Below, in pieces: positions 1,599 through 21,774 of a stretch of DNA of 21,824 nt. Within the stretch, counting starts at the first letter, position 1, and every line of letters begins with the position of its first letter. The notes beneath the pieces were generated by a model. The model ran no database searches. It had not been told where the DNA came from and worked only from the letters and a program-made list of their open reading frames with translations. Position numbers and translations under genes: made by a program. Origin of the DNA: a virus; IMG/VR virus record IMGVR_UViG_3300030328_002803, positions 1 through 21,824 of that record; one strand, 5' to 3'.

Positions 1599-1601
1599 GT
1601 T

Positions 1602-3248: not shown

Positions 3249-3269
3249 TTTCTATAGACTTTTTTTCTT

Positions 3270-3277
3270 TATTTATA
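3270..3277 (-). promoter_or_regulatory. T4-type late promoter for gp8
   Basis: The minus strand reads TATAAATA exactly, the consensus T4 late -10 element recognised by gp55-type sigma factors. It lies in the 34-base gap between the giant gene stop (3283) and the gp8 start (3248), with 21 bases between motif and ATG. It would allow gp8 and the DUF4815 gene to be expressed independently of the 12.7 kb gene upstream. The location supports function; the transcription start has not been measured. Confidence 0.75.
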
Positions 3278-3282
3278 CCATA

Positions 3283-6200
3283 TTAAGTTGAATCCTTTAT
3301 AGCACCCGTTTCTCTAAGTCCAGAACCTCTTCTCTGAACTCTAGGGAAGGTTGTCAATCCAGAATTAACAGTGTTACCAGATACTGTGAGTGTAAGTGGA
3401 TTTGATGATCTTGTACCACCAGTTAACTTACCCCAAGAGAATCTACCACAAATAGTATTCTCTGTAGCGATACCCACAATTGAAGTATCTGTTTTCACTC
3501 CTGCAACAAATTCACCCAAATTACTACTTGAACTTAAAGAACTAACAATGTAGATGTTATCAAAGAATGATGTTCCAATACCTACAGGTGCACCTGATGA
3601 TATTACTGTAGATGTTGCACCAGAACCAACAGATGTATCGAATATGTAAATTGGATCGCCATTTGCTAATCCAGTAAATGATCCTGATTCTTTATCAAGG
3701 AAGAATTTAATAGTCGAACTACTAAGAACTGTTATTCCTGTTACAATACCAGAGAAACCAGCAGAACCACTAAATCCAGTAATAGTCTCAGATGGAGTGA
3801 CTGGAACTGCTGCTATAACATTAGGAGCAGAAGAACTAGTATATCCAAGACCTGGATTAGTAATACTAATACTAGTAATACTTCCAGCAGTAATTGATGC
3901 AGTTGCTGTTGCAGTTTCTCCTGTTCCAACTGTTCCATCACCCTTCATGAAAGTAGTAATACCTGTAGTAGGAATACCAACTGAAATAGATGTTGTTGCT
4001 CCAACATATCCACTTCCACCGTCAGTAACGGTTATTGATTGAATGGTTCCAGCAGCAGAGACAACTGCATTAAGATCAGCAGATTGTCTAGTCATATTAT
4101 CATCAATAACTAAAGTACTTATTGTTGAAGGACTATCATAAGAGAAGAAATTATTAATACTATCAAAATAAACAGTAGAGTCACCAGGTGCTACATCTTT
4201 AATGATTCTTGCATCTGGGAATACTAATGGTTCTATTAAAGGTCTAACTTTAGTAATTAATCGACCATTTATAAACTTATCAGATTTTTGCTTTATCCAT
4301 CTAACAGGTTTGAAATTAACATCATCAATACCTTGAGAATAATATAATTCAGTTTCAACAGTGTCTGCAGTTGTTATTCCAGAAATTGTTCTTACATTTT
4401 GATCTTCAGATTCGAGTATAGTATTACTCTTTAATATTTGAAGTTCATCACCAACTTTAATGGATTCTTTAACATCCACATAGGTAACATCAACACCATT
4501 TGTTCCCTTAAAGAAGAAAATAGATATATTATCATCTTCTTTTGGTGCTTCAGTAAACTGGAATCTTGTTCCTCCATTAAAGATGTAAGATTCTCCAGGA
4601 TTTTGTAAAACTCCATTAACAAATATTAATAATAATGATTCCATATTAACCAATGATCCAGATTTAGGTTGGAAAGATACCAACTCATCTTTAAAGTTTA
4701 ATGGGAATACTGTTCTAATTCCGTCCTGAAGATATGCAATAGAATCGATATAATCAAATTCACCCACATTCCAAGAACTGAAACTATCTGTAAATACTTC
4801 ATTTACTGTAAACTGAATCTCTGATATTGGTGAAGATAATCCTTTATCTGTAATTAACCCAACAGGTTTAAATACATCACCTTTTCTAAATCCATACCCA
4901 CTTCTAGGACTATAAAATGATTTTACTTCAAATAGAGTAGATCCGATACCAGTTGTATTACTACCACCAACATCAATATTCAATAATAATCCTGTTCCAG
5001 TATCTGTTGTAGCACCTAGACCTATTCTTGAAACTCCCGTTATTGGTAGATTCTCATATGATGGAGATGGTGGCATTACAACTGGATTGATATATCCAGT
5101 TCCACCACCAACAACAGTGAAACTTAATGTTCCACCAACACCAACTGTTGCTGTTATAGTAGCACCAGTTCCAACTCCACCACCAGTTCCAACTCCAACC
5201 TTGAAATAATTATCAGTCGCCTCAAGAATATTTAAATCTGTATTGTAAGCTGGATCTGTTGAACGTGGATATGTATGATCAGTTGCATGTGCATCTTTAT
5301 CGCAAGTATATACTAAAGATTCTGTTGCTATACGAATTTTATTAGCAGATCTTTTAACACCACTAGAAGTAGCACTTACAAATGTGTGAACACCTGTATT
5401 TGATGATGGGATAGTTTCAAGAACATTAATATCAAATTGATCTCCTCCACTTACGTTAGATATTGGCAACCATTTACCACCTAAAGGATCAGTTGATCTT
5501 GGATATGTGTGATTAGTAGCATGTGCATCTTTATCACATGTAAATGTAAGAGAATTATTATCAAATTTCACTATTTGACCATTTGCTAACGCTGGTGAAG
5601 GTGATGCACTGAGTTTTATAGTTAAAACACCTGTAGTTGGATTATAAACAGTTCCTGTAGTTGCTGTATATGAATCTGATGTTATAAGATTGTGATTATT
5701 TTTTGTAAATGTTACAATACCTGTTGATGATGTATAAGGAGCGTCAACAGGTGTAAATGTAGCAGTTACTCCAATTCCACCAGACTTAACGGTGATAGAA
5801 CTAGAAGAACCTACAAATCTATGTTCATATGATTCATCCACAACATTAATACTAATAATACCATTTCCTGTTACGCTTTGTTCAGGACGATATCCAGATC
5901 CGTGGAAATCTCTTGTACCAATACCAACAGCAGTTATAGTTCCACTAGAATTAGTGACTGCTGTAACAGCAGCACCAGCTAAAGGTGCATATCCCAATCC
6001 ACCACTATATCCAATAGATATAATTTGTCCAGATCTAGGTAATTGGTTTTGATTAACATCAGATTCACTTATTATTTGAGTTCCATCTGCAGAAGAAATT
6101 CCACTAAACACAAAACTTGTTATTCCAGTAGACTCACTAAAATCATAATTGTTTAGAGGATTTTGTTCTGTTGTTGGTCTTTGGAATATACCATTAAGTG

Positions 6201-9200
6201 TTAAGAAACTACTACCAGTTGTAAGACCAGTTGTATTAACTCCAGATATAGATGTTCTAAATGTTTGTGCTATACCAGTAAATTCGTGAGATACATCATC
6301 AAAGATAGCATTAGATGAATAATCTTGTCTTAAAAATACTCTTCCACTGAAACTTGCCCTACCCCGATCACGATTAGAATCGTCTGTTTCAAGAACATTA
6401 GTTCCTCTTGGAGGATTAGTAAAGAAAATACTTTCACCAACTATGTTATATCCACCCTTATATAATCTAACAGTAGAGGTATCAGCATGTGTAGTTGCTG
6501 CAGAACCAACAGATGCTCTTGTAACATCTATTAAATTTAAAGATCCAGTATTGGTTATTGGACCAACGCTTGTGGTTCCAAATCCAACATTATTAACTCT
6601 CACAAATTCATCATTTATCTTTAAAATATCATCAGTTACAATTGATGTAATTCCTGCTAAAGATATTATTGAAGTTGTAATTGAAACTTGGCTACTAACA
6701 TTATTAGTTAAAGTAGTTGTTATAGGAGTAAATGATATTGGCGATTGAATAACATTATCAAGTGTAATTATAGATTTTTCATTTTTCTTAAACATCTCCA
6801 ACTTATGCCTATTTCCAGATCCTGCAGTATTAAAGGTAACTGCTGTTCCTCCTCTAGTTGTTGAAAGTCCAAATACATTTGAATTAGTTGTTCCTGAAGG
6901 AAGAGATACATAGACTTCACTAGGTAAAGAAATTCCGTTAGACATTACTAAAGATGCAGAACTAACACCATCTAAAGATGATCCAGGTGTGTATATTAAT
7001 CTTTCATTTCTATTAAAGAAATTATTTTCAAGCGTAAATTGACCAGTACTTGTATTGAGACCAACAGATGGATTAAAGAAATTAGCAAATATAAGATTAT
7101 TATTATTTCTTAATTTAAATGATCCTACATCTGACCTATCACCACTTATAGAATTATATTGTAAGAGAGATAAAGATTCTGATGATTTACCATAAGTTAA
7201 AGTCGGTGTCTCATTAACTAAATCTAACTCAGTATTAATAACTTCATTATATGATTGAACTTGCAAATTACCAACTCCTATAAAAGCAGCGTCGGGATGG
7301 AATTTTAAATTAAAATCAGAACCACTAAATTCTGCAGAGAAAGTTCCAATTCCAGCATCTGTTCCAATAGATATAAATGGATATTGTGTAATAAAAGTAT
7401 CTGTTCCATCATGAGCCATTAGAACTTGATGTAACGCACTAGTGTTACCTATAGAAACTTTAACAATACTCTTAATTGTCGTATCTCTGGATGTAGTAAA
7501 TCCACATATAGTTGCTGTAGATCCTATACTTACAAATTTAGATTCTAATCTAGCTGAATTTTCAGATCCATCTGATTGTTCATCCAATTTAAATCTATAT
7601 GTTCCAATACCAGATGATGTTTTACCAAAACCAACAATCTTAGATCTAACTAAAACTTGATTTGATCTATCATTTTCATAATTTAAAGATAAAACTCCAG
7701 AATCAATTTCTGACGTAAATGTTCCTATTGAGTTTCCAGTATTAGTCTCTAAGGAATAGTTTGATATGTAAGAATTAGTTCCATCATGAGTTACATAAAG
7801 TTCAACTATATTATTTTCATCTGCAATATCATCATTTACTGAAATAGTAGCAAAATAAGATTCTAAAGTAGTAATACTAGAAGATATTATAGTTGAAGTG
7901 CTAGAAGAAGATACATTAACATTGTTTCCTGTTAAATCAATAAATCCAATAGTATCTGTTCCAACACCAACTCCTGCTATAAAATTATTTTGAAATATCT
8001 TAATATCTAAATCCGTATTATAAATCTCAACTGGATTAAACTTCAAACTATAATTATCATCAACATCTTTATCTCCAATAATATCTACTAATTTACTTCC
8101 ATTATTAATAGAACTTTTTTCAATAGTATAGATGTTTTGATTAGTAAAATCTGCAGATGATATAACTTCTGTAACTTGAAGTGTATGTGTTGTCCTTGCT
8201 ATTCCAGTGCTAGGTAATGGAACTTTAGTTTGAACTAAAAATCTATTAAAGGAATCTGTAATTGACAGTTTACCGTCTGTTCTTGCATTATTAGCAGCAT
8301 CCGAGAATAAAGTACTAATATCATCTATTTGTATAGCATTGTTTGTATTACATTCAAAATAATTAGCAAGTTTTTTGTTTTGGAAATTAATAAATTTAGA
8401 TCTTCTAGGAGATGATAAAATATCAGAATCTCTTACTAAATCAAAATTATCTATTGCATCAACTCTATTTTCAGATGAAAGATCTCTTATTATTGTTGAT
8501 GAGTCAACAGATGATGTTGTTCCAACACCAACTGCTGAAGTAATTCCAACATCAGCAAAGTTTTTAAGACCAGTTGTATGTAATAATTTATTTACAGGAC
8601 TTGATAATTTTGTATATTCAATTGGACTTTGAATAGTATATGATAAATTTTGATAATAATCATTATCTGGCAATACCTGATAATCTTCATTCAATTTTCC
8701 GACATTATCACGCCAACCCTTATCCTTCTTAGAAGAATAGTCTACCAAAAATTCCCCTTTATTTGAAAATAAAGTATTGATTGTAGCTATTGTTCCAGTG
8801 AATAAACCCTGTATTTTATCACCAACCTTTAAATCATATCTACCAAGAACTTTTATATAATTATTTGATACTTTATCCAATATAAGATCAACTTTTTCAA
8901 ATAATTCATTATCTCTAGAAACTAAAATACTTTCACCTTCACTGAATGGTGAAAGATCTGTAATAACATCAAATTTAGGATAGTTATTAAAATTAATTAC
9001 AGAACCATAAGTTTGAAGAGTTTTAGCTAATCCAGGATTTGATACCAATCCATCTAAATTAATTTCCATCTTAAATGGATTTGGATTACTTCCTCCAACA
9101 ATATTAGTTACTGGATAGAATTTAAATTGATTATTTGGTGAATTAAAAGTATCTCCATACTCATTTTCAACATTTTCAATAAATAACGTATCTCCAACTT

Positions 9201-12200
9201 CAAATGGTGCAGTAGAGAATCCTAAAATCGGAGTTGCTAATGTGAAAGTTACTAAACCAGTAGCCTCACTTGTAACTATTGTACCACCAATTGCAATATT
9301 AGTTATTTGTATTCCATTTGTATTATCTTCAGCAAATATCTTACATTCCCCAATTCCTTTTGGAGTTGATATAATGTCAACAGCACTAATTGATTGAGTT
9401 GCTTGACTGACTTTAGCTTGTAAAGAACCACTTTTTATAATTTCTTTAGATTCATCATCTAAAATAACTAAAGTAGGTGCAGTTATATAATTTTTTCCAC
9501 CATCAGAGACATTTATAGATACAATTTGATCTGAATTTTTTATTGTTATAACTGGTGATATATTCGCTATTGGTGTTAGTGTCTTATCTGATGAATACTC
9601 AAAACCAATATTAACTATTTCAGTATTTTCAATTTGATTAGCATTAGTAGAATCTGGTAAAACTTTAGCATTAGTTCCTTGAGTAGAAGCAACACTTACA
9701 AATTTTGGTAATGCTTTATATCCATCCCCACCAAAATCCAAACCTACCTCATTAATTGGTCCTCTTTCGGTTTTTGAAGTAGTTGAATATTTCAAATTAC
9801 TTGTATTATCGGAAGTATATACTAAATTTTCAGGTTTAGTATCTAATCTAATATCAAATGTGGTTGTTCCAACTCCTACGATAGAATAATCATGATTATA
9901 TTCACTAGTTTTATATGATATTCTAGATCCATTAACAACATCTACATCAGATGTGCTTATAAAACCTGATTTTTCAACATTATAAAATAAATTTACTGGA
10001 TTAGTAGGAGAATAATTTATTGTCAAAGAAGCAGTTGATGTAACTCCAATTGTTCCAGATGTAGAAACAACATTAAGTGTAGTTGCTCCTGTAGAAACAA
10101 AATCATTATTAAAATTTTCATCCTGATATATTTTAAAATCTAAACCCAATAATGATGAATCTGATAAATCAAAAACTAAATTATTATTTCTTGTTACAGA
10201 AATTGGAGGATTAATTAACGATAATGTATGTGTTGCACCAACTGATACTAAATTTACAACTTTCGGTGGAATTATACTTGAATCATATAATGTTTCTGCT
10301 AATTTTATTTGACTATCAGAAACTTTATAAACAAAATAACCTCCAGTTTCTAATCCACTAGCTACCTCTACGGCATCATAATAAACTTTATCTCCTGTTT
10401 TTAATCCATGAGAATTTAAAGATATTGTATTTGTAGTTGTATTAATTCCAGAAGTAAAACCAATTCCATTTATTAATAAACTATCAATCGAAGAATTGTA
10501 CTTAACTCCAACAGAAGCAGAAGTTCCAACACCAACTGATTGATTTGGTTCTACATTTAAACTAATAATGTCTCCTCCAGACAAACTATGAGATGTAGTT
10601 AAAGTAACTTTTGAATTTATTCTTTCTAAATTTCCAGTTACTTGTGTAAAATTAGATTCAATTGAATAATCAAAATAATCATCTCCATTAGTTCTAAAAA
10701 ACAGTCCATTGGTTGTTGTCAAACCAACTTGAGTTACAATTCCAATATAGTCTTTAGATTTATTAATAACAAATACATCTTGACTAGTTCCTGATAATGG
10801 CAAACTAAATTGTTGACCCACTGATCCATCTCTAGAAACAGAAATAGCTGATCCTCCAGAACCCCTACTAAAAGTAACTGACTGTCCAGTTTTAAATGGA
10901 TGATTTGGTAAATACATACTCTGTGCTGGAACAGATACTTGTCTTGAAGTATCTCCAACAGCTACAGTTATTGCTGTAGATATACCAACTGTAGTTGCTA
11001 CTCCTATAGATTGTCTAGGATTAAAATAAGCAATATCATTTACCTTAGAAGTAAATGAGTTCGTTTTAAAGTTAATATCAAAGAAATTAGGAAGTAAATT
11101 TACTCTCGATGATAAAGTATGTGCTGTTCCAGTTACACCTCTTTTAACTCTTATAATATTTCTATCATCAAATTTATTAAGAACTAATAAGTTTTCAGTT
11201 CCTATTCCAATACTACTACCAACAGAAATTATATTTGTCTGATAAACATAGATATCAGTTACTACTCCAGCAGTTGCATTTGAAGCAAGTTGTTTATATA
11301 AAACTGTACTTTCACTAGTAATACCAGACACCAATTTATTTCCAGATAAAGGAAGTCCATCTAAAGATGAAATATCTGTAGTCAATCCAGATATCTCTAA
11401 ACTATTTCCAACTACTAATTGATGTGTGCTTGGGACATAAGCAGAAATTGTATTCTGATCTTTCCATATAAAAGTTACATTGCTTAAAGATTCATAAGAA
11501 GTATCAATATTTAATATACTTTTACCATCTAATTTCGATACAGAGGCACTTACACCACTTCCATCTGTGTCGCTATTATCAAAAGTTATACTATCACCAA
11601 CTTTATAATTATCACCAGATTTTATAATATTTACAGAATCTACTTTACCTTGAGATACTGAAGTAACTTTTGTTAATTGTGGTAATAATTCATCAGATTC
11701 AATAATAAAATCATTATCAGCAAAGTCATTAGATACTTTATATGGAAAAGTATTTCTAACTAACTTGGAATTATTAAAATCAAATGATTGTGTTAATGAT
11801 TTACCACTATCTAAAGTTTCTGGTATTGATCTATAAGTATTTCCAACAAAGTATGGAAACTTTGGTTCCTGAGTTATTGTGTCTATTCCTACGAAATAAG
11901 CATAAACACCATTTGGATATTCTGGAGTTTTACCAAATCTACCATTATGTTGATCTAAATCTGTTGTGGATGTTGGTGTGTATGAAAAATCATCTGCAAA
12001 GAATCCCAAATCAAAAGATAAATCTGATCTATTTTCAATTGTAGAATTTAAAGAATATCCTGTTTCTAATATTTTTATACCAGAGTTAATATCCAAAGGA
12101 TCAGTATATCCATATGGACCATAAATTGGATTTCCATCATACGCCCATCCAATTATAGGAGAGTGACTACCAGGTAATTGTCCATATTGTTCTCCTCCAA

Positions 12201-15200
12201 TTTGAGTTGAATATCCAACAACTGAATACTGTAATCCTTCATTGGATGAAATTATTTGCTGATTGGTATATTTTGCACTATAAGGTCTAGTAGTTTGAAT
12301 ACCACATAAATTTAATTTATCGATTGAAATATTAAATACTGCATTTTTTCCTCTTGGAACTACAGTTATTCTTGTTTTATCATAGGTATAATTAGTTCCA
12401 CCATTTATGATGATAACATTAATAATCTTTAAATATGTTGCTGAATTTTCATCTCTATCAATAACTGCTCTTAATTTAGCACCTACTCCATCCCCAATAA
12501 CTTCTAAATCAGGTGTTGAATAAAATTCATCACCACCATCTTGGATATTAATGTTAGATATTTTTCCATTAACTATTAATGCATCTAAAGAAGGAGTAAT
12601 ATTTTTACCTGTTCTTGAGGATCCATTCTTAATTACAACATCAGGTTTATTTTCATAATTAATAATATCTTTAGTTCCATATCCAGTTCCTTTATTGTAT
12701 AGAGACACATCTACCAATCTTCCCTGTACTACTGGTGTTAGAACTATTGTATCATTTGTAGGTACAGAATATGAAACATCTATAGAAATTTCTATATCAG
12801 GGTATTTAAATAACTGATATCCAGTTCCTCTAGTTTTAAACTTGACATAGTTTTTACTAATATAATTGGTATTATCAGTTCCACCAACACCTGCATTCGA
12901 TACTCTAAAGGTATCATCATCAATTTTAAGAACTTTATACTGATTTGTAGTCGTCAATCCAGATATAGATTGTGGTGTTGTAGACCCTAATCCAACACTT
13001 GTTTGATAAGTAACTAACTCACCATCAGAGAATCCATGATTGCTAAAAGTTACTGTTGATTTTTCTATGGATATTCCAGTATCTGAATTAGCATAAACCT
13101 TTCTATTTGTATATGGTTTACCAGATTGTATGACTCTTACAGCAACTAAATTAGGTTTAGCATCTTTTATTCTAAACTTATGAATACCTTCTTTTGCAAC
13201 GTCAGTAAATCCTATCGTATTAATACCACTAATATAATCATCCTCACTTCTATAAAGTTGAATTGTTGAACTAGTACCAACTTGACCTATAACTTTTGGC
13301 CAATATGGTTGTCCATCTATCAAAGATTCATAATTTGCTACATTACTACCTTTAAATGTTCCAATTCCTAACTGCGTATTTTTATTCTTATCATATATTA
13401 ATACTTGACCATCATTTAAATTATGTGGTTTTATAAACGTTAAAGTTTCAATATTAGTATCAATTCCACCACCAAAAGCACTTGTTACTCCACTAAATTC
13501 TAAAACCCTATTTCTTCTTGAAGTAATTGGTTGTAATTTAGCTTCTCCACTATTTCCACCAGTTATTGATATGGAATTTATAATTTCTATATCAACATTT
13601 TGCCCATCAACTAATATTTCTCTAATATCACCTTCTACAACAGGACTTGCAAGTGCTTGTGTTCCCCCTGAAGAAACTATTTCTATTTCTGGTGGGTTAA
13701 TAACATCATAGTCGGTTCCAAATCCAACAGATGAAAAATCACTTATTGAACCATAAAAAACACTATCTTCAGATCTACCATTTCCAATTTCAACACCATC
13801 TATCAACATTCCTACAGGTCCAGGAATTGTCTTTACATTTTTACCTAAATTTTGTTTAACTTCTATTGGGAATTTCTTTAATATCTTCTGTGATGTAATT
13901 TTCTGATCATATTGATCATTTAAAATGAAGGAATGTGCAGTAGTAGTAATTAGTGGAACCGCAAATTCAACAAAAGAATTAGATTCAATAAATGCAGGTG
14001 ATTGATATAATTTTATCTTATTATTTCCAATAGTTTTAATATAATAAACTCCTGAAGATATTCCAACTAAAGGATTACCTTCAGGACTATAATATATCGC
14101 ATCTCCAGTTACAAACGGGATATCCTCATCAAATGCTATTGTTGAATACTTTTCAGTTAATGAATTATAATCTTGTACTGTATCATTTTCAATTACTGTA
14201 GAAATACCAACTTTAGAAATATTCTTACCGATGGTATATGATGGTAATGAACCACTTGCTACATATAAATTTTCATCAGATTCATTATATACATTTTGAA
14301 CATCTGATGTTAATATATTATCTCCAAACTGAAGAAGATTAAAACTACTAAATGCCTTTTTAAGAGATCTTCTAATTGAATATTTTTTATTAGATTCTAA
14401 ACCTGATATTGTGTCTGTTAATATTACATAATTTCCAGATTGACTTACTTGATTAATTTTTGAAGTAGCAATAAGTGTTCCTAAAGAAAAAGGATCACTT
14501 GTTTTCTCTAAAAATTGAATATCATCACCCTTTTTTAAACTTGAGGGGTCAATTGTAGATTTTAATGTAAATTGAGATAAATTTCCAGAAATTCCTTCAT
14601 TAATTTCATAAGTACTAGATGTATTATAATTCCATGAGTTTGCAAATATTTCCTTTTGAGTCTTATCTAGATTTGGATTTTTGATCTCCTCACCAATACT
14701 TTTGATAGTAATTGTTTCATCATTTAATGATAGTTTATTATTAGAAGAAGGAACAAATTGTTTTAAAACTCCAGTTAATCTTAATTCAACTTTTTTAGTT
14801 TGATCCCCATTCTCATACCCAAAGACAATATCATCTGCAATGACATCAGAACCTAAACTTATCGCAGTATTGATACCTGAACAATTTAAAAATTGATTTA
14901 TAGTTTTATTAGTATATGTAATATTTGTATTCACTCCAGCAAGCACGGTACCTGTTGCACCAAAACCAATAGTGGAATCAACTGTTATAACTGATGATCC
15001 AATACTTATAGTATCAATTACTTTAGTTTTACCCGTTACATCAAATGTTCCAGTTATAAACTCTTCATCATTATATCCAACAAAAATATCTAAAGTAAAA
15101 TACTCTTTTACAGAAGATGCTCCAGTTATTCCTGTTAATACCTCAACTTCAGAAATTGAAGCAGTAGTTTGTAAATCAGTTGATCTAAATATTGTTTGTC

Positions 15201-15975
15201 CCTGTAATTTGAGGGGATCTCCAGATATTTTTTCTGCTACTATTCTTTCACGTCTTAAATATTTTGCGGAAGATGGTTTTACTAGGTATTGTTCAAGATC
15301 AATTACTTTTGGAGTTACTCCATATAGAACATTAAATAAAATCCTAAAGGACTCTTCTGTACCCTTTGCTTCATAAAATGTTCTTGCTTCTTTTATAAAA
15401 TTATTTACATCTAAATCTGATATAAAATCTGAATTTTCTAGTCCAGGTGTAAAGGTTTTCTTTAACTTTTTATAAAACTCTTGTAAAAATAATGCACTTA
15501 AATTATCTACAACAGACCCATTAACATGAGATGCTGCAGATGAATCTGAAAAAATTATTTCTGATGGATTATTACTATCTCTATATGATGTTATTCCACT
15601 AAATCCACGCTGACATCCTGTAAAACTATTCGTTGTTATTCCAGTATAACTTATAACCTCACTTCCAATTTTTAGTAATCCATACTGATTTGGGAATCCT
15701 TTCGTAGTTTCAACTGAAATTGTAGTATCACTAGAAGTGATCCCAGCCGTAAGACCTGTTACTCCTTTAATAACTTCTGGAGTTAAATTATCTAATTTTA
15801 AATATTGATCAAGATTATCTACCAGATCAATAGGACCACCAGTATATTCCTGAGAAATATAATATTGTTTTAAAAAGTCTGCAGTTTTTGGACTTTCAGA
15901 TAATATAAATTCTGGAAGTTGATTTTCAATTATTTGATGAACTTTAATTCTTGTATCAATACCCGTACTTATCAT
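3283..15975 (-). CDS. 7: Giant gp7-position baseplate wedge protein, 4230 aa, with YHYH-type domain
   Basis: This uninterrupted 4230-codon gene lies between gp6 and gp8, the place of T4 gene 7 (1032 residues). Residues 194-224 include 'YEAKGTEESFRILFNVLYG', resembling the T4 gp7 stretch 'STKGIEASYKFLFKVLYN'; 'FLKQYYISQE' (34-43) resembles the helix before it. That wedge-like part is interrupted at about 80-155 by a beta insert ('LLKIGSEVISYTG', 'CQRGFSGITS'). The rest looks like chained beta modules. 'NHGF/SHGL..G(D/E).V.Y' units occur near 683, 853, 981, 1515, 1695, 1797, 1858 and 3432. GGxGY units are scattered from about 745 to 4050. A YHYH-type domain begins near 1276 ('GWAYDGNPIYGPYGY') and ends near 1385 ('PKFPYFVGNTYRS'). 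A pair of 'HDGT' modules lies at 2730 and 2855, and a pair of 'TCDKDAHAT' motifs at 3480 and 3558. The C-terminus, 'FPRVQRRGSGLRETGAI', is an ending I recall from cyanophage giant proteins. No signal peptide is seen. The start is fixed by a strong SD (AAGGGG, 5-base spacing) and a 1-base gap to gp6. Confidence 0.8.
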   Translation of the reverse strand: MISTGIDTRIKVHQIIENQLPEFILSESPKTADFLKQYYISQEYTGGPIDLVDNLDQYLKLDNLTPEVIKGVTGLTAGITSSDTTISVETTKGFPNQYGLLKIGSEVISYTGITTNSFTGCQRGFSGITSYRDSNNPSEIIFSDSSAASHVNGSVVDNLSALFLQEFYKKLKKTFTPGLENSDFISDLDVNNFIKEARTFYEAKGTEESFRILFNVLYGVTPKVIDLEQYLVKPSSAKYLRRERIVAEKISGDPLKLQGQTIFRSTDLQTTASISEVEVLTGITGASSVKEYFTLDIFVGYNDEEFITGTFDVTGKTKVIDTISIGSSVITVDSTIGFGATGTVLAGVNTNITYTNKTINQFLNCSGINTAISLGSDVIADDIVFGYENGDQTKKVELRLTGVLKQFVPSSNNKLSLNDETITIKSIGEEIKNPNLDKTQKEIFANSWNYNTSSTYEINEGISGNLSQFTLKSTIDPSSLKKGDDIQFLEKTSDPFSLGTLIATSKINQVSQSGNYVILTDTISGLESNKKYSIRRSLKKAFSSFNLLQFGDNILTSDVQNVYNESDENLYVASGSLPSYTIGKNISKVGISTVIENDTVQDYNSLTEKYSTIAFDEDIPFVTGDAIYYSPEGNPLVGISSGVYYIKTIGNNKIKLYQSPAFIESNSFVEFAVPLITTTAHSFILNDQYDQKITSQKILKKFPIEVKQNLGKNVKTIPGPVGMLIDGVEIGNGRSEDSVFYGSISDFSSVGFGTDYDVINPPEIEIVSSGGTQALASPVVEGDIREILVDGQNVDIEIINSISITGGNSGEAKLQPITSRRNRVLEFSGVTSAFGGGIDTNIETLTFIKPHNLNDGQVLIYDKNKNTQLGIGTFKGSNVANYESLIDGQPYWPKVIGQVGTSSTIQLYRSEDDYISGINTIGFTDVAKEGIHKFRIKDAKPNLVAVRVIQSGKPYTNRKVYANSDTGISIEKSTVTFSNHGFSDGELVTYQTSVGLGSTTPQSISGLTTTNQYKVLKIDDDTFRVSNAGVGGTDNTNYISKNYVKFKTRGTGYQLFKYPDIEISIDVSYSVPTNDTIVLTPVVQGRLVDVSLYNKGTGYGTKDIINYENKPDVVIKNGSSRTGKNITPSLDALIVNGKISNINIQDGGDEFYSTPDLEVIGDGVGAKLRAVIDRDENSATYLKIINVIIINGGTNYTYDKTRITVVPRGKNAVFNISIDKLNLCGIQTTRPYSAKYTNQQIISSNEGLQYSVVGYSTQIGGEQYGQLPGSHSPIIGWAYDGNPIYGPYGYTDPLDINSGIKILETGYSLNSTIENRSDLSFDLGFFADDFSYTPTSTTDLDQHNGRFGKTPEYPNGVYAYFVGIDTITQEPKFPYFVGNTYRSIPETLDSGKSLTQSFDFNNSKLVRNTFPYKVSNDFADNDFIIESDELLPQLTKVTSVSQGKVDSVNIIKSGDNYKVGDSITFDNSDTDGSGVSASVSKLDGKSILNIDTSYESLSNVTFIWKDQNTISAYVPSTHQLVVGNSLEISGLTTDISSLDGLPLSGNKLVSGITSESTVLYKQLASNATAGVVTDIYVYQTNIISVGSSIGIGTENLLVLNKFDDRNIIRVKRGVTGTAHTLSSRVNLLPNFFDINFKTNSFTSKVNDIAYFNPRQSIGVATTVGISTAITVAVGDTSRQVSVPAQSMYLPNHPFKTGQSVTFSRGSGGSAISVSRDGSVGQQFSLPLSGTSQDVFVINKSKDYIGIVTQVGLTTTNGLFFRTNGDDYFDYSIESNFTQVTGNLERINSKVTLTTSHSLSGGDIISLNVEPNQSVGVGTSASVGVKYNSSIDSLLINGIGFTSGINTTTNTISLNSHGLKTGDKVYYDAVEVASGLETGGYFVYKVSDSQIKLAETLYDSSIIPPKVVNLVSVGATHTLSLINPPISVTRNNNLVFDLSDSSLLGLDFKIYQDENFNNDFVSTGATTLNVVSTSGTIGVTSTASLTINYSPTNPVNLFYNVEKSGFISTSDVDVVNGSRISYKTSEYNHDYSIVGVGTTTFDIRLDTKPENLVYTSDNTSNLKYSTTSKTERGPINEVGLDFGGDGYKALPKFVSVASTQGTNAKVLPDSTNANQIENTEIVNIGFEYSSDKTLTPIANISPVITIKNSDQIVSINVSDGGKNYITAPTLVILDDESKEIIKSGSLQAKVSQATQSISAVDIISTPKGIGECKIFAEDNTNGIQITNIAIGGTIVTSEATGLVTFTLATPILGFSTAPFEVGDTLFIENVENEYGDTFNSPNNQFKFYPVTNIVGGSNPNPFKMEINLDGLVSNPGLAKTLQTYGSVINFNNYPKFDVITDLSPFSEGESILVSRDNELFEKVDLILDKVSNNYIKVLGRYDLKVGDKIQGLFTGTIATINTLFSNKGEFLVDYSSKKDKGWRDNVGKLNEDYQVLPDNDYYQNLSYTIQSPIEYTKLSSPVNKLLHTTGLKNFADVGITSAVGVGTTSSVDSSTIIRDLSSENRVDAIDNFDLVRDSDILSSPRRSKFINFQNKKLANYFECNTNNAIQIDDISTLFSDAANNARTDGKLSITDSFNRFLVQTKVPLPSTGIARTTHTLQVTEVISSADFTNQNIYTIEKSSINNGSKLVDIIGDKDVDDNYSLKFNPVEIYNTDLDIKIFQNNFIAGVGVGTDTIGFIDLTGNNVNVSSSSTSTIISSSITTLESYFATISVNDDIADENNIVELYVTHDGTNSYISNYSLETNTGNSIGTFTSEIDSGVLSLNYENDRSNQVLVRSKIVGFGKTSSGIGTYRFKLDEQSDGSENSARLESKFVSIGSTATICGFTTSRDTTIKSIVKVSIGNTSALHQVLMAHDGTDTFITQYPFISIGTDAGIGTFSAEFSGSDFNLKFHPDAAFIGVGNLQVQSYNEVINTELDLVNETPTLTYGKSSESLSLLQYNSISGDRSDVGSFKLRNNNNLIFANFFNPSVGLNTSTGQFTLENNFFNRNERLIYTPGSSLDGVSSASLVMSNGISLPSEVYVSLPSGTTNSNVFGLSTTRGGTAVTFNTAGSGNRHKLEMFKKNEKSIITLDNVIQSPISFTPITTTLTNNVSSQVSITTSIISLAGITSIVTDDILKINDEFVRVNNVGFGTTSVGPITNTGSLNLIDVTRASVGSAATTHADTSTVRLYKGGYNIVGESIFFTNPPRGTNVLETDDSNRDRGRASFSGRVFLRQDYSSNAIFDDVSHEFTGIAQTFRTSISGVNTTGLTTGSSFLTLNGIFQRPTTEQNPLNNYDFSESTGITSFVFSGISSADGTQIISESDVNQNQLPRSGQIISIGYSGGLGYAPLAGAAVTAVTNSSGTITAVGIGTRDFHGSGYRPEQSVTGNGIISINVVDESYEHRFVGSSSSITVKSGGIGVTATFTPVDAPYTSSTGIVTFTKNNHNLITSDSYTATTGTVYNPTTGVLTIKLSASPSPALANGQIVKFDNNSLTFTCDKDAHATNHTYPRSTDPLGGKWLPISNVSGGDQFDINVLETIPSSNTGVHTFVSATSSGVKRSANKIRIATESLVYTCDKDAHATDHTYPRSTDPAYNTDLNILEATDNYFKVGVGTGGGVGTGATITATVGVGGTLSFTVVGGGTGYINPVVMPPSPSYENLPITGVSRIGLGATTDTGTGLLLNIDVGGSNTTGIGSTLFEVKSFYSPRSGYGFRKGDVFKPVGLITDKGLSSPISEIQFTVNEVFTDSFSSWNVGEFDYIDSIAYLQDGIRTVFPLNFKDELVSFQPKSGSLVNMESLLLIFVNGVLQNPGESYIFNGGTRFQFTEAPKEDDNISIFFFKGTNGVDVTYVDVKESIKVGDELQILKSNTILESEDQNVRTISGITTADTVETELYYSQGIDDVNFKPVRWIKQKSDKFINGRLITKVRPLIEPLVFPDARIIKDVAPGDSTVYFDSINNFFSYDSPSTISTLVIDDNMTRQSADLNAVVSAAGTIQSITVTDGGSGYVGATTSISVGIPTTGITTFMKGDGTVGTGETATATASITAGSITSISITNPGLGYTSSSAPNVIAAVPVTPSETITGFSGSAGFSGIVTGITVLSSSTIKFFLDKESGSFTGLANGDPIYIFDTSVGSGATSTVISSGAPVGIGTSFFDNIYIVSSLSSSSNLGEFVAGVKTDTSIVGIATENTICGRFSWGKLTGGTRSSNPLTLTVSGNTVNSGLTTFPRVQRRGSGLRETGAIKDST
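5252..5308 (-). repeat. In-frame repeat, copy 2 (CDKDAHAT motif)
   Basis: This 57-base segment matches 5486-5542 at 49 of 57 positions by direct comparison. It encodes 'TCDKDAHATDHTYPRSTDP' around residue 3558 of the giant protein. The offset is 234 bases, exactly 78 codons, so the repeat keeps frame and marks a duplicated protein module. Confidence 0.85.
5486..5542 (-). repeat. In-frame repeat, copy 1 (CDKDAHAT motif)
   Basis: This is the partner of 5252-5308 and encodes 'TCDKDAHATNHTYPRSTDP' around residue 3480. Both copies keep the Cys, two Asp, two His and Tyr residues, while the linkers between them have diverged. That suggests selection on the motif itself. Confidence 0.85.
7240..7862 (-). 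repeat. Tandem pair of ~125-residue 'HDGT' modules in the giant protein
   Basis: Two consecutive protein modules share the pattern HDGT-x3-I-x2-Y, then about eight residues, then IGTF-(T/S)-(S/A)-E. The first reads 'VTHDGTNSYISNYSLET' and 'SIGTFTSEIDSG'. The second reads 'MAHDGTDTFITQYPFIS' and 'GIGTFSAEFSGS'. The HDGT codons begin at 7788 and 7413, a period of 375 bases (125 codons). DNA identity outside the motif is low, so this is an old duplication. I recall similar HDGT modules in other marine phage tail proteins. Outer boundaries are approximate. Confidence 0.7.
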
Positions 15976-18549: not shown

Positions 18550-18714
18550 TTACTCTGTTGTAATTTCAGTTTTTATATCATTTGGATGAGGTTGACCTGT
18601 CTGATAGTATTCTATCGAAAGGTCTTCTAGTCTCTCAAACATTTCATACTCTGAAAGACTAGAAAATATTACTTTATCTTTTAAAAGAATATTATATAAC
18701 TCTTGTTTTTTCAT
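18550..18714 (-). CDS. Small acidic hypothetical protein, 54 aa
   Basis: This 54-residue protein starts 'MKKQELYNILLKDKVIF' and continues 'FERLEDLSIEYYQTGQPH'. It is Glu/Asp-rich and probably largely helical up to about residue 40, with a short polar tail. Its start overlaps the end of the glycosyltransferase gene by 23 bases, and the 48-codon gene follows after 2 bases, so all three should be one transcript. AGGA lies almost directly before the ATG, an unusually tight SD. I believe I have seen relatives in cyanophage genomes, but no function is known to me. Confidence 0.75.
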   Translation of the reverse strand: MKKQELYNILLKDKVIFSSLSEYEMFERLEDLSIEYYQTGQPHPNDIKTEITTE

Positions 18715-19447
18715 GTCCTACACGAATTCGAGGGTCGCACCAGATTTCAAAACCTGCTTCTTTCGCATCGAGACAGAAAGAAACGTCCTCACCGCACATA
18801 TCTTGCACTTCTCCTGATTCAAAAACTTGCATCTTCGGTGCGAACCAAGGATAAGGCATTCCTTTATCTTCAAAGACTCCTTTCTTAATCAATAACCATC
18901 CGAAACCTGTATAATCTACTGTGAATGGTTTTTTGCGTTTGGATATACTTTCGATAGTTTCGTGATTCATCACTCCACCATTGCTACGAAAATCATCCTC
19001 TTCTAACCAATGTGCTACAGAAGTAGTCTTACCATCTTCGGTACAATACCATCCACCTGCAATATCTTTGTCCATTAAGACTAACTGAAAGAATTTTTCA
19101 GAATTAAAAACAATATCTGAATCAATCCATAATTGATAATCATAATTTAATTTACCATCCCAAGGTATTTGATCTGGTCCTCTCAATACATTTGCTCCAA
19201 GACACTTGCAACGGGCAAAGTTAACCATTGATGAATAATCTTGAGATATTTGTATACTTGCTCCACATTGCACTAGGTCAAAACAAAGTTGAACAAATGC
19301 TTTTAAGTAAGTATATGATACCCCTCTACCAGGTAAACAAAATACTACGGACTTTCCTTTAAGTAATTCTTTTGCTTTATCATAATCCCATTCTGCTTCT
19401 TTCTTCGCAGCAGGTGGGTTTGCTTTTACTGTAAATCCTTTAGCCAT
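18692..19447 (-). CDS. Glycosyltransferase-like protein (GT-A fold)
   Basis: This 251-residue protein looks like a GT-A type (family 2-like) glycosyltransferase, which moves a sugar from a nucleotide-sugar donor to an acceptor. After a basic N-terminal tail comes a first beta strand, 'GKSVVFCLPGRGVSYTYL' (31-48). A DXD-type metal and donor site, 'LWIDSDIVF' (106-114, Asp109 and Asp111), follows, then 'GGWYC' (131-135), 'YTGFGWLLIKKGVF' (179-192) and 'CGEDVSFCLDAKEAG' (218-232), the usual acceptor-side acidic motif. The C-terminus, 'WCDPRIRVGHEK' (236-247), adds a His often found as a metal ligand. No signal peptide is seen. The substrate cannot be read from sequence; DNA, capsid or host surface glycan are all possible. 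It is the first gene after a near-consensus sigma-70 promoter and lacks a clear SD. Confidence 0.8.
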   Translation of the reverse strand: MAKGFTVKANPPAAKKEAEWDYDKAKELLKGKSVVFCLPGRGVSYTYLKAFVQLCFDLVQCGASIQISQDYSSMVNFARCKCLGANVLRGPDQIPWDGKLNYDYQLWIDSDIVFNSEKFFQLVLMDKDIAGGWYCTEDGKTTSVAHWLEEDDFRSNGGVMNHETIESISKRKKPFTVDYTGFGWLLIKKGVFEDKGMPYPWFAPKMQVFESGEVQDMCGEDVSFCLDAKEAGFEIWCDPRIRVGHEKTRVI

Positions 19448-19507: not shown

Positions 19508-19675
19508 TCAATATGATGCATCGATCATCTCAGTTTCGCTTAACTTTTCATACGTTAAGTCTTCTGTAAAATACGACTTATATATCCGTCTCCATATAAT
19601 ATTGAACTCCCACTCGGTTAAATCTTTGAATAAACAATTATTCTGTAAGTATATGTGATAAGTGGGATCAGTCAT
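19508..19675 (-). CDS. Small conserved phage protein, 55 aa
   Basis: The preferred start is ATG at 19675, giving 55 residues starting 'MTDPTYHIYLQNNCLFKDL'. An in-frame ATG at 19699 would add eight residues but overlaps deeper into the preceding gene. With the chosen start the two genes overlap by 8 bases (ATGACTGA), typical of coupled phage genes. The protein has aromatic, acidic and basic residues in a compact pattern ('EWEFNIIWRRIYKSYF', 21-36) and is probably helical. I recall similar 'YLxNxCLFKDL' proteins in cyanophages, with no known function. It ends 10 bases upstream of the next promoter's -35. Confidence 0.7.
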   Translation of the reverse strand: MTDPTYHIYLQNNCLFKDLTEWEFNIIWRRIYKSYFTEDLTYEKLSETEMIDASY

Positions 19676-19841
19676 CTTTCTCTGTGAGCATGATCTCACC
19701 TTTATCTACATTCCATTTTAACACAAGATCTTCATACCAGTCAAGTTCATTTATGATTTCCTCTGGTATAGTCATGTGATACCTATCCGTTACTGGATCA
19801 ATCTCTATGGTCGAAAAAATATCATCGAAATTTTTTTTCAT
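19668..19841 (-). CDS. AbrB/SpoVT-like small protein, 57 aa
   Basis: The start chosen is ATG at 19841, because AGAGGG lies 9 bases upstream; the alternative ATG at 19862 has no SD. The 57 residues include 'DPVTDRYHMTIPEEIINEL' (15-33), then 'LVLKWNVDKGEIML' (39-52). This resembles the swapped-hairpin AbrB/MazE DNA-binding fold, where a strand with 'xxTIPxxI' leads into 'LGWxxGDxLxxxVxxGxIxL'. Such proteins act as transition regulators or antitoxins. No toxin-like partner is evident: the overlapping downstream gene does not look like MazF or PIN. A phage regulatory role is possible but unproven. Confidence 0.65.
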   Translation of the reverse strand: MKKNFDDIFSTIEIDPVTDRYHMTIPEEIINELDWYEDLVLKWNVDKGEIMLTEKDD

Positions 19842-19850
19842 ATAAGTGAA

Positions 19851-19856
19851 CCCTCT
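19851..19856 (-). promoter_or_regulatory. Ribosome binding site deciding the start of the AbrB-like gene
   Basis: AGAGGG on the minus strand lies 9 bases before the ATG at 19841 and falls inside the coding stretch that would follow the alternative ATG at 19862. It favours the shorter 57-residue product. Confidence 0.6.
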
Positions 19857-19957
19857 GGTCATTTTATATATGGGAAAATATTTTTTGATTATCGTGATAT
19901 TGAAAGGTCGATCTGGGTCGTTTATAGCTTATAGAGTCCCATCGAATTAATATAACG

Positions 19958-19976
19958 CCCCCCGATCAACGGGGGG
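19958..19976 (-). terminator. G/C-tract hairpin after the nuclease-like gene
   Basis: A perfect 7-bp stem of CCCCCCG with CGGGGGG encloses a 5-base loop, 28 bases past the stop at 20005. The minus strand continues GTTATATTAATT, AT-rich but without a proper T-run. It may be a terminator or a 3'-end stabilising hairpin. Confidence 0.6.
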
Positions 19977-20004: not shown

Positions 20005-20751
20005 TCAAATACTCTCTACACGCACACCCTCTGCAGTTTTCAATACTCTGCCTACACTGTCCTGCTGCAATTTCAATACTACCTGTGAGTTCTTATTTGC
20101 TTTGCTTAATCCTAAAAACGCAGTAATGCCATTATTGGATGTGAGACGGAGACGCAAACCAGTATCCACAGTGTGATCACCTTTACGAAGTGCGACCTTA
20201 CGTGAGGTTGACCCCTTACCCTTTACCAACTCCGCAGTGTATCCAGAATTCAAAAGACGAACTGACTCAATCGCATCATGCTCACAAATATACATTTTAT
20301 CCGTGAGGGTGTCGGTGATGACCATTGCCATGTTAGAATTAGCATTGATCAGTTGATCATGTAACCACGCAGTCAAATCATCTGACTCTATAGAATCCAA
20401 ACCAACACGGCAAAGGTTGGCAAATATTTCTCTCATGGGTTCAACCTGTGACGCTGCATCATCGGTGAATCTTAAAGAGGCAACCGTTAATAAGAATTCC
20501 TGGAACTGGTCACGGTTTGTGAGTGCCTCTACTTTGGAAGTGTTCACCCAGTCAAACGAACCGTTATTGATTCCCTTCTTATGCTTTATGCTGATTTTCT
20601 TTGATCCTGCAATTGCGTCTGCTTTATTTTTGGTACCACCCAAGTGGGTTACCTGCTCATTAAAAATCCCACGCTCATTAAGAATAGCAATTGTCTCATG
20701 CTCATTCTTAACGCCGTGGGTGTGAGTTGATCCGTCTGTTTTAAAAGTCAT
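20005..20751 (-). CDS. Candidate PD-(D/E)XK-type nuclease-like protein
   Basis: This is a 248-residue protein of uncertain function. The N-terminal third has 'NEHETIAILNERGIF' (16-30), 'THLGGTKNKADAI' (35-47) and 'KKISIKHKKG' (51-60), followed by 'GSFDWVNTSKVEAL' (64-77). An early Glu (18), an Asp after a GGT-x-x-K-A turn (45) and a strand ending xIK (56) fit the layout of a PD-(D/E)XK nuclease core, but Ser54 stands where Glu or Asp is usual. Activity is therefore uncertain. The C-terminal half (about 120-248) has no motif I know. The gene has its own extended -10 promoter and a leader hairpin, and is followed by a hairpin at 19958. The codon composition is less AT-rich than in the structural genes. 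I recall similar 'HLGGTxxKADA' proteins in marine myoviruses. Confidence 0.6.
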   Translation of the reverse strand: MTFKTDGSTHTHGVKNEHETIAILNERGIFNEQVTHLGGTKNKADAIAGSKKISIKHKKGINNGSFDWVNTSKVEALTNRDQFQEFLLTVASLRFTDDAASQVEPMREIFANLCRVGLDSIESDDLTAWLHDQLINANSNMAMVITDTLTDKMYICEHDAIESVRLLNSGYTAELVKGKGSTSRKVALRKGDHTVDTGLRLRLTSNNGITAFLGLSKANKNSQVVLKLQQDSVGRVLKTAEGVRVESI

Positions 20752-20766
20752 TTGTTTAATAGTGGT

Positions 20767-20785
20767 GGGGTGACGTGTTCACCCC
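20767..20785 (-). promoter_or_regulatory. Leader hairpin upstream of the nuclease-like gene
   Basis: A perfect 7-bp inverted repeat, GGGGTGA / TCACCCC with loop ACACG on the minus strand, lies 15 bases before the ATG at 20751. If transcription starts about 7 bases after the -10, the hairpin begins near +6, so it could stabilise the 5' end or affect ribosome loading. No SD is visible between it and the ATG. Confidence 0.55.
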
Positions 20786-20797
20786 TTTACATTTTTA

Positions 20798-20806
20798 ATT
20801 ATACCA
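20798..20806 (-). promoter_or_regulatory. Extended -10 promoter for the nuclease-like gene
   Basis: The minus strand reads TGGTATAAT, a perfect extended -10 (TGnTATAAT). No -35 match is present at the usual distance, because that stretch is taken up by the hairpin at 20807-20832. Extended -10 promoters can work without a -35. Confidence 0.65.
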
Positions 20807-20832
20807 GATCAACCCCCTTAATAGGGGGGATC
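20807..20832 (-). terminator. G/C-tract hairpin after the ligase-like gene
   Basis: The inverted repeat pairs GATC with GATC and CCCCCT with AGGGGG around a TAAT loop, with two unpaired A's on one arm. It starts 12 bases past the stop of the upstream gene. No T-run follows; the next bases are the extended -10 of the next gene. It may be a terminator, an RNA-end stabiliser or a regulator of that promoter. Confidence 0.55.
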
Positions 20833-20844
20833 TGTTATAAAGCG

Positions 20845-21774
20845 TTACGCCGTGGCAAACCTCCGATTAGGGTTGGTGAAATTATTGTAACTGAATTCTC
20901 TACGGTCAACTAATTTGAAATATCCGAACCGTGAGATCATAACGTATCCCTCACCCTTCGTGCGTTCCGTGTAATTTACACGTGTTTCAAAATCTGCATT
21001 ATCTTCACATAGGTCTAATGCTTTCAACTTTATCTCATTAACGACCTTCCATAATTCAATTAGATTAGCATTGCCATAATTTCCATCATCGTCAAAATCA
21101 GCAGGGTTAACTTCTTTACCCTCACGGATAAGATAGTTTAAGTTGATCTTAATTTTCTTTGCTGTTCGCTCATCTACAAAGTCAACAGCAGTTGCCATGT
21201 TCTTGGCATACTCAATTAAATCTGCTAACTCATGGAAAGCATTTGCCCCGTCAGATATGAACGCTTTTGGTTGAACATATCTTACATGAGATCCGCTTTC
21301 TAATCTTTCAGTAAGAGGCATTGCGATTGCATCACGTAAATCCTCCGCAGCATAATACTTTGTATGCGGTGCAATGATGATTTTTGACTTAACGATCTCA
21401 GGGAACGAATAGGTTAAAGTGTTCGGTCTGTAATTCTTAGACCCTCCGAACCCGATAAAGTCACCCTGATAAATGTTCTTTGTGATTGGCAGGTATGCCA
21501 TGCAGTACATTAGGATTTTCTCTAATGCAGGTTTGTGACCATAGAACTTTTCAATATCTGAAGGGGTTTCACATATTAAGATTTTATTCTTATTGAAAAC
21601 TGACTTGGTTCCCACGAACTGGCAACCAGTGGCAGGATTGCGACCCCATACAATGGAAGGTGCCCCATCTATTTTCAATGATAGAATTAAAGGCAGTAAA
21701 AAAGCATCCAACACGGATAAATCACCTGTGAGGATGCTGTCTTCGGGGTGCTCAATGTGAAGGTTTTTAGTCAT
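20845..21774 (-). CDS. Ligase-like nucleotidyltransferase-fold protein (DUF6267-like)
   Basis: This 309-residue protein resembles the covalent nucleotidyltransferase fold of ligases and capping enzymes. 'LKIDGAPSIVWG' (33-44) fits motif I (KxDG), making Lys34 the candidate AMP- or GMP-accepting residue. 'FVGTKSVFNK' (53-62) follows; 'YQGDFIGFGG' (102-111) may stand for motif III, 'GEGYVMI' (274-280) for motif IV (EGxV) and 'YFKLVD' (285-290) for motif V. Marine T4-like phages carry such proteins, which I recall as DUF6267 or hypothetical, with an N-terminal 'HIEHPED' as here (6-12). DNA or RNA joining is possible, but substrate and activity are unknown. The frame is open upstream to the window edge and no SD is seen, so a slightly longer protein cannot be excluded; the 'HIEHPED' position supports the ATG used. 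Confidence 0.65.
   Translation of the reverse strand: MTKNLHIEHPEDSILTGDLSVLDAFLLPLILSLKIDGAPSIVWGRNPATGCQFVGTKSVFNKNKILICETPSDIEKFYGHKPALEKILMYCMAYLPITKNIYQGDFIGFGGSKNYRPNTLTYSFPEIVKSKIIIAPHTKYYAAEDLRDAIAMPLTERLESGSHVRYVQPKAFISDGANAFHELADLIEYAKNMATAVDFVDERTAKKIKINLNYLIREGKEVNPADFDDDGNYGNANLIELWKVVNEIKLKALDLCEDNADFETRVNYTERTKGEGYVMISRFGYFKLVDRREFSYNNFTNPNRRFATA

Follow-up and report, generated by a model that had tools for sequence, protein, structure and literature searches.

Does a ligase-like gene lying beside a nuclease-like gene in a virus genome form a working pair with it, or do the two genes only share a neighbourhood? The question is raised by IMG/VR record IMGVR_UViG_3300030328_002803, which is 21.8 kb long and comes from an uncultured virus; its full 21,824 nucleotides are called the window here. 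Two adjacent open reading frames (ORFs) were confirmed on its minus strand where a first-pass annotation, made from the letters alone, had placed them. The first encodes a 309-amino acid protein of the DUF6267/phrog_455 family, predicted to be an RNA-ligase-like covalent nucleotidyltransferase (20845-21774), and the second, after a gap of 93 bases, a 248-amino acid protein predicted to be a PD-(D/E)XK restriction-type endonuclease (20005-20751). Both are probably real enzymes, as conserved residues and predicted folds indicate, but they do not seem to be a cut-and-seal pair. In our best explanation, which we consider likely, the nuclease represents a new family of restriction endonucleases, type II-like and carried by phages, and stands beside an independent RNA-ligase-like DUF6267 gene. 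This explanation is built on conservation, predicted folds and gene linkage, from which we infer the activities, the targets and the window phage's own methylase.

Pfam, PHROG, NCBIfam and PADLOC named no family, including no described restriction or defence family, for the 248-amino acid protein, and searches of the PDB by phmmer and by profile gave no sequence match to a known nuclease. When 28 members of the nuclease family were compared with Pfam and PHROG, only scattered weak matches were obtained. None of 50,697 phage records matched the nuclease, isolate phages gave no match to the divergent member L028 used as query (labels with L or G denote relatives' loci or contigs compared with the window), and none of the 84 stretches of bacterial genomes that fitted a pattern encoded a relative. 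At least 133 relatives were found in IMG/VR.

Conservation was read from 143 hmmsearch rows, which are redundant and comprise all loci gathered by then. E17 in a helix-A N-E motif (20701-20703, minus strand, as for all protein features below), a candidate catalytic acid, and D45 (20617-20619), the candidate catalytic aspartate, were invariant in all 140 rows covering them. At position 56, 137 of the 141 rows with this column have lysine, and the remaining four, identical proteins from four loci, have the S-x-K motif one alignment position away. The first-pass annotation had proposed D45 and K56 as part of a possible PD-(D/E)XK core and correctly saw a serine in place of the usual acidic residue (S54-I-K56, 20584-20592), which it took as a weakness of the assignment; position 54 was S in 134, T in 4 and G in 3 of 141 rows. 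Since Ser54 is itself conserved, S-x-K is a trait of the nuclease family; serine before x-K is probably a variant shared with Cfr10I and NgoMIV. D67 (20551-20553), which was D in all 141 rows covering it, might stand in for the missing acid, and N70 was essentially universal too. Eight residues (R200, R202, N207, N219, K227, Q229, Q230 and D231) were present in 143 of 143 rows and mark a C-terminal signature, GLRLR..SNNGI.AFLG.SKANKNSQ...KLQQD (20059-20160). E17, D67 and this C-terminal block had been absent from the first-pass annotation.

The structure of the nuclease was predicted with a predicted local distance difference test (pLDDT) score of 89.9 and a predicted template modelling (pTM) score of 0.85. 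In VIA-align the first eight rows were all PD-(D/E)XK chains, with Z scores from 7.6 to 4.7, and the next, unrelated row had a Z of 4.0. The top row was Hjc 2wcw (Z 7.6, root-mean-square deviation (rmsd) 3.0, 105 aligned); further rows were DpnI (6.8), Hjc 1gef (6.8), D212 (6.0), 1y1o (5.4), MspI (4.8) and MvaI (4.7). Families absent from fold lists were not counted as evidence. The protein shares its core fold with Hjc, DpnI, MspI and MvaI and differs from them in lacking sequence similarity, in having serine for the second acid and in its extra C-terminal signature. Altogether the core fold, the aspartate, the x-K lysine and the helix-A glutamate were found, with serine as the residue before x-K, and fold and conservation support the prediction of a PD-(D/E)XK nuclease.

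The recurrent partner of this nuclease was a DNA methyltransferase. A PF01555 gene (E 4e-38 to 8e-40) recurs directly downstream of the nuclease in other contigs; in several loci its start and the nuclease stop are at most about 10 bases apart, and in several the reading frames overlap. Loci were merged where their last 200 bases agree, giving 85 distinct loci with the window included, and gaps in this survey were measured from stop to stop, which understates them by whatever in-frame sequence precedes each start. The methylase was directly downstream in 17 of the 85; nine of these 17 loci were recovered through the methylase query itself. A tree built from 88 nucleases shows linkage to a methylase no further than about 1.8 kb away (24 rows) in each deep branch and accounts for it by only four changes. 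At the level of the family, the nuclease thus has the linkage to a DNA methyltransferase gene that marks type II restriction-modification systems. The reverse comparison gave the nuclease in 17 of 34 contigs chosen for the methylase (from 80 methylase loci, the longer ones plus a few of 8-18 kb), as against none of 21 contigs chosen for DUF6267, which were picked by length from 80 loci (562 relatives confirmed) and did not include L137, a DUF6267 locus on the same list that does carry the nuclease. No methylase was found in the 21 DUF6267 contigs. Among isolate phages no match to the nuclease-linked methylase reached 60% identity, the best listed being about 30%, and among the titles and abstract openings listed in literature searches no description of the nuclease or of its methylase pairing was found.

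In other relatives the methylase lies at a distance. Eleven contigs, drawn from both the nuclease and the methylase surveys, have a same-strand methylase 7.7-13.8 kb upstream of the nuclease (distances computed by hand from contig ranges); the nucleases of two of these, G030 and G059, belong to the sister group of the window's clade. In a survey of 36 contigs, which represent part of the nuclease loci, seven contigs chosen for the nuclease extend at least 14 kb upstream of it and have no adjacent methylase, and in five of them (G021, G028, G029, G030 and G036) a methylase was present 10-12 kb upstream, although the nuclease sequences of G021 and G029 are identical and G028 gave the same tblastn figures. 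The window ends 50 bases beyond the DUF6267 gene, and gene linkage further upstream falls outside it; the methylase gene of this phage is probably beyond the window edge. L042, a locus near-identical to the window, in which the start of DUF6267 is 96% identical, stops before the expected place of the methylase, which is set further out by the synteny of G030. Two scans with far-end genes of L042 recovered L341, in which a true methylase (E 1.6e-191) lies at a distance of some 5 kb from genes sharing 75-78% identity with those of L042. As a sign of a methylase in the window's lineage this is suggestive only, and none of the 82 loci scanned in this search had the nuclease.

A check on the pairing came from fold alone. 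A match from a viral fold library in isolate S-CAM22 fits gp186 (NC_055710, gp186-gp185 32917-34262), a relative that the nuclease sequence profile missed at E 1; the 208-amino acid ORF was equated with UniProt A0A1D8KQX4 by length, genome and motif. The gp186 protein contains the same GG-x3-K-x-D...S-I-K string as the window nuclease, is 17% identical to it in the fold alignment and is present in 11 isolate records. An annotated DNA methyltransferase gene (gp185) follows gp186 directly, stop and start overlapping by 4 bases, and a helicase gene is nearby; because gp186 was reached through fold alone, this arrangement is an independent check on the association of nuclease and methylase. The S-CAM22 methylase is distant from the nuclease-linked methylase profile (E 8.6e-15). 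Another fold match, of 433 amino acids in ACG-2014f, was not used; three ORFs are that long, one of them with D...S-x-K, and its identity was not settled.

On this basis the nuclease would cut DNA by a PD-(D/E)XK centre to which E17, D45, S54/K56 and perhaps D67 contribute. The phage DNA would be shielded by a beta-class N6/N4 DNA methyltransferase from the same phage, and unmethylated DNA of the host or of rival phages would be cut, as in chloroviruses. In the lineage of the window the methylase gene would no longer adjoin the nuclease gene but lie outside the window, some 8-14 kb upstream, and the sequence-specific endonuclease would perhaps be made early, from its own promoter. Chlorovirus nucleases are described in PMC7019647 as packaged and as the presumed cause of host DNA breakdown that starts within 5 minutes. 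The systems are alike in their virus-encoded nuclease and methylase genes and in the proposed action on host DNA while the viral DNA is methylated; chloroviruses differ in their eukaryotic host and in having genes that are always adjacent, whereas they are often 8-14 kb apart here, and activity is demonstrated for chloroviruses (PMC7019647), whereas it is predicted for the present pair.

The other gene encodes a member of DUF6267 (PF19782, E 1.2e-69, 236 bits against a curated cut-off of 27), which also matches phrog_455 (E 9e-102). By tblastn, DUF6267 was found in 470 of the 50,697 phage records, mostly from Synechococcus and Prochlorococcus phages; nearly all matches listed are annotated as hypothetical protein, and no match to DUF6267 was found in the searched literature. 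The KxDG, EGxV and K-x-V elements seen by the first-pass annotation are present as K34-I-D-G, E275-G-Y-V and K287-L-V. ATP-dependent RNA ligases are defined by motifs I, III, IV and V, the last usually being K-x-K. In DUF6267, motif I (K34-I-D36-G37, 21664-21675), with the predicted nucleotide-accepting lysine, and motif IV (E275-G-Y-V278, 20941-20952) are clear and invariant, Q103-G-D105 (21460-21468) may be read as motif III, and the motif V-like K287-L-V-D-R291 (20902-20916) has V for the second lysine. K34, D36, G37, P39, T56, K57, Q103, D105, E275, G276, K287 and R291 were invariant in 85 viral sequences, in at least 90% of which V278 was kept. In a second set of 18 sequences, down to about 30% identity, K34, D36, G37, E275, G276 and K287 were likewise invariant, far above chance.

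The DUF6267 model (pLDDT 92.7, pTM 0.88) had a nucleotidyltransferase fold, and in VIA-align its first 31 rows were all RNA or tRNA ligases. Naegleria RNA ligase 6vt0 was at the top (Z 9.0, rmsd 3.5, 176 aligned), followed by T4 Rnl1 (7.9), a tRNA ligase (7.2), T4 Rnl2 (7.2) and archaeal RNA ligases, with DNA ligases lower. T4 Rnl1 and Naegleria RNA ligase resemble DUF6267 in fold and also in the order of the KxDG, EGYV and K elements: T4 Rnl1 has TKEDGS and EGYVAVMKDGSHFKIK, and the DUF6267 protein of the window has the close LKIDGA and EGYVMISRFGYFKLV. Motif V is K-x-V/I in DUF6267, not the K-x-K of T4 Rnl1 and Naegleria RNA ligase. Fold and motif order, where sequence alone is insufficient, thus point to a covalent nucleotidyltransferase whose closest counterparts are RNA ligases, and support the prediction of an RNA-ligase-like nucleotidyltransferase. 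The protein would form a covalent lysyl-nucleotide at K34 and then join or modify nucleic-acid ends, in repair or modification separate from the action of the nuclease.

In other cyanophages DUF6267 seems to go with a cytidylyltransferase-like protein. A cytidyltransferase gene directly follows DUF6267 in P-RSM4, MED4-213, S-WAM2 and S-CAM22 and comes one gene later in C48C1; in S-PM2 the two are fused in one protein, and phrog_455 covers both parts (DUF6267, 22-336; cytidyltransferase, 343-724). No annotated cytidyltransferase was present in the examined stretch of S-SRM01, P-SSM2, S-SM2, S-H38, ACG-2014f or SynMITS9220M01. The loci with such a fusion or direct succession are L039 (2995-4770), L036, L037, L038 and L197. 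DUF6267 of isolates was observed among restriction or methylase genes as well, with an MjaI-type endonuclease in S-SM2 (L035 679-1206, PF09568 E 1e-46), a 'restriction endonuclease II' in S-H38 (L041 808-1503) and two DNA methyltransferases in P-SSM2 (L034).

The DUF6267 protein could instead be another covalent nucleotidyltransferase, capping-like or modifying proteins or metabolites, that is partnered with the cytidylyltransferase and is no ligase. We regard this as possible, with the odds against it. It would fit the retention of one of the two usual motif V lysines and the fusion to a cytidylyltransferase-like domain in S-PM2, which is not known as a ligase arrangement. It would also fit the sequence comparisons, which speak against a ligase: Pfam, NCBIfam and PDB searches named none, and hhalign of the DUF6267 profile with T4 Rnl1 gave no signal (E 0.15, motifs out of register). 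Likewise Foldseek found no PDB match to the model at E ≤ 0.001. The Foldseek list is nevertheless led by ligases (E 0.014 or worse) with capping enzymes only low down, and in VIA-align the RNA and tRNA ligases take all leading rows, above DNA ligases, which argues for the RNA-ligase-like assignment.

For the nuclease, the rival is that it is solitary in the window's clade, with no methylase, or structure-specific in a Holliday-junction-like manner; a solitary nuclease would degrade host DNA that differs in some other way from phage DNA, as T4 endonuclease II does. We judge this unlikely, with several observations counting for it and against the restriction-type reading. The fold Z values are middling, the best single match is the Holliday-junction resolvase Hjc, which ties with DpnI, and the absence of a PDB match at E ≤ 0.001 in Foldseek makes the support for the core fold moderate. 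None of the 56 rows in the window's clade has an adjacent methylase, and none was found in the window itself or in L042, whose sequence covers 8 kb ahead of DUF6267. No PF01555 gene occurs in G001 (135 kb) or G003 (63 kb), both of which extend 14 kb or more beyond the nuclease on its upstream side. In G002 the nuclease and the family's methylase are about 102 kb apart (G002 also ends in an incomplete PF01555 stretch, which belongs to a different methylase), and the other 17 of the 34 methylase contigs show no nuclease, some perhaps by truncation. Against a solitary enzyme stand the five of seven suitable contigs with an upstream methylase, the linkage in all deep branches of the tree and the position of the S-CAM22 relative, and we therefore retain the restriction-type reading.

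This leaves the cut-and-seal pair of the first-pass annotation, for repair or against damage by host defence. Direct adjacency of DUF6267 and nuclease was found in 11 of the 85 distinct loci, in one of them with a nuclease only 38% identical, and T4 rnlA (RNA ligase) directly adjoins denA (L308 2341-3952). The likeness, in that a T4-like phage has genes for an RNA ligase and a site-specific endonuclease side by side, is limited by the reversed gene order, and common descent of the linkage is not shown; T4 DenA belongs to another nuclease family, GIY-YIG. On the nuclease tree the 11 adjacent rows are scattered, with seven changes compared with four for methylase linkage. The nuclease profile found nothing in 13 whole phage records, and nuclease-bearing contigs of 135, 99.5 and 63 kb were without DUF6267, which was present in five of 27 nuclease-bearing records searched, these having been chosen mostly for lacking nearby DUF6267. 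L004 has a nuclease 92% identical to that of the window but an upstream DUF6267 only 47% identical, and its intergenic hairpin is different; recombination between the two genes is the simplest reading, with an assembly error in L004 being possible. Given these independent distributions, the scattered adjacency, the exchanged DUF6267 in L004, a separate candidate promoter for the nuclease and its recurrent methyltransferase partner, a cut-and-seal pair is improbable and was rejected as the main reading: DUF6267 and the nuclease are neighbours, with no function that requires both.

The region between the genes contains a hairpin (20813-20829), found by stem search and in a six-relative alignment. 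The candidate promoter of the nuclease gene is an extended -10 element, TGGTATAAT (20798-20806, minus strand), judged from conservation: TGGTATAA is identical in six of six aligned relatives, and the final T is absent in L003. The matches of a promoter scan did not include this element. An inverted repeat in the nuclease leader, GGGGTGA-N5-TCACCCC (20767-20785), is kept in six relatives and may act as an operator or fold as an RNA hairpin; in two of the six a C has become T, which leaves a G-U pair possible. A terminator-like hairpin with 7 G-C pairs follows the nuclease gene (19958-19976, minus strand).

T4-like baseplate genes were found on the minus strand of the window, gp25 (E 1.7e-12), gp6 (6e-18) and gp8 (1.7e-9), and upstream of this block are a glycosyltransferase-like gene, the DUF6267 gene and the nuclease gene. 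Both genes probably occupy a variable spot upstream of a T4-like baseplate operon, in a phage that is probably a cyanophage. PF00124 photosystem-reaction-centre genes in three of 12 nuclease or methylase contigs, together with the label Kyanoviridae of L042, point to cyanobacterial hosts for some of these contigs. Between gp6 and gp8 a single ORF of 4230 amino acids was observed (3283-15975, minus strand); T4 has a much shorter gp7 there. A 251-amino acid gene (18692-19447, minus strand) matches phrog_1574, with a weak glycosyltransferase match, and its family, cluster 4, occurs between nuclease and gp25 more often than any other in relatives, in 25 of 45 clustered loci. Just downstream of the nuclease gene, a 64-amino acid gene (19668-19862, minus strand) matches phrog_661 and, below threshold, a MazE-like antitoxin (E 0.15). 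In L042 two big neighbouring genes lie upstream of DUF6267 (1561-4667), the first of which matches phrog_61, 2OG-Fe(II) oxygenase.

In a broader and rather doubtful version, the locus would represent an undescribed cyanophage restriction-modification family methylating phage DNA and digesting unmarked host chromosomes as chloroviruses do, together with a DUF6267-cytidylyltransferase two-enzyme end-processing unit in hundreds of cyanophage records; this restriction-modification family would be one of uncultured T4-like cyanophages, absent from the isolate phages searched. Adjacency by itself would have coupled two genes that appear to recombine independently, which calls for caution. The analysis provides a testable function for an unnamed nuclease family and for DUF6267, whose records are nearly all from cyanophages. 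If the nuclease-methylase pair is active, it could show directly how some marine T4-like phages degrade host DNA and spare their own, and possibly yield new cutting specificities.

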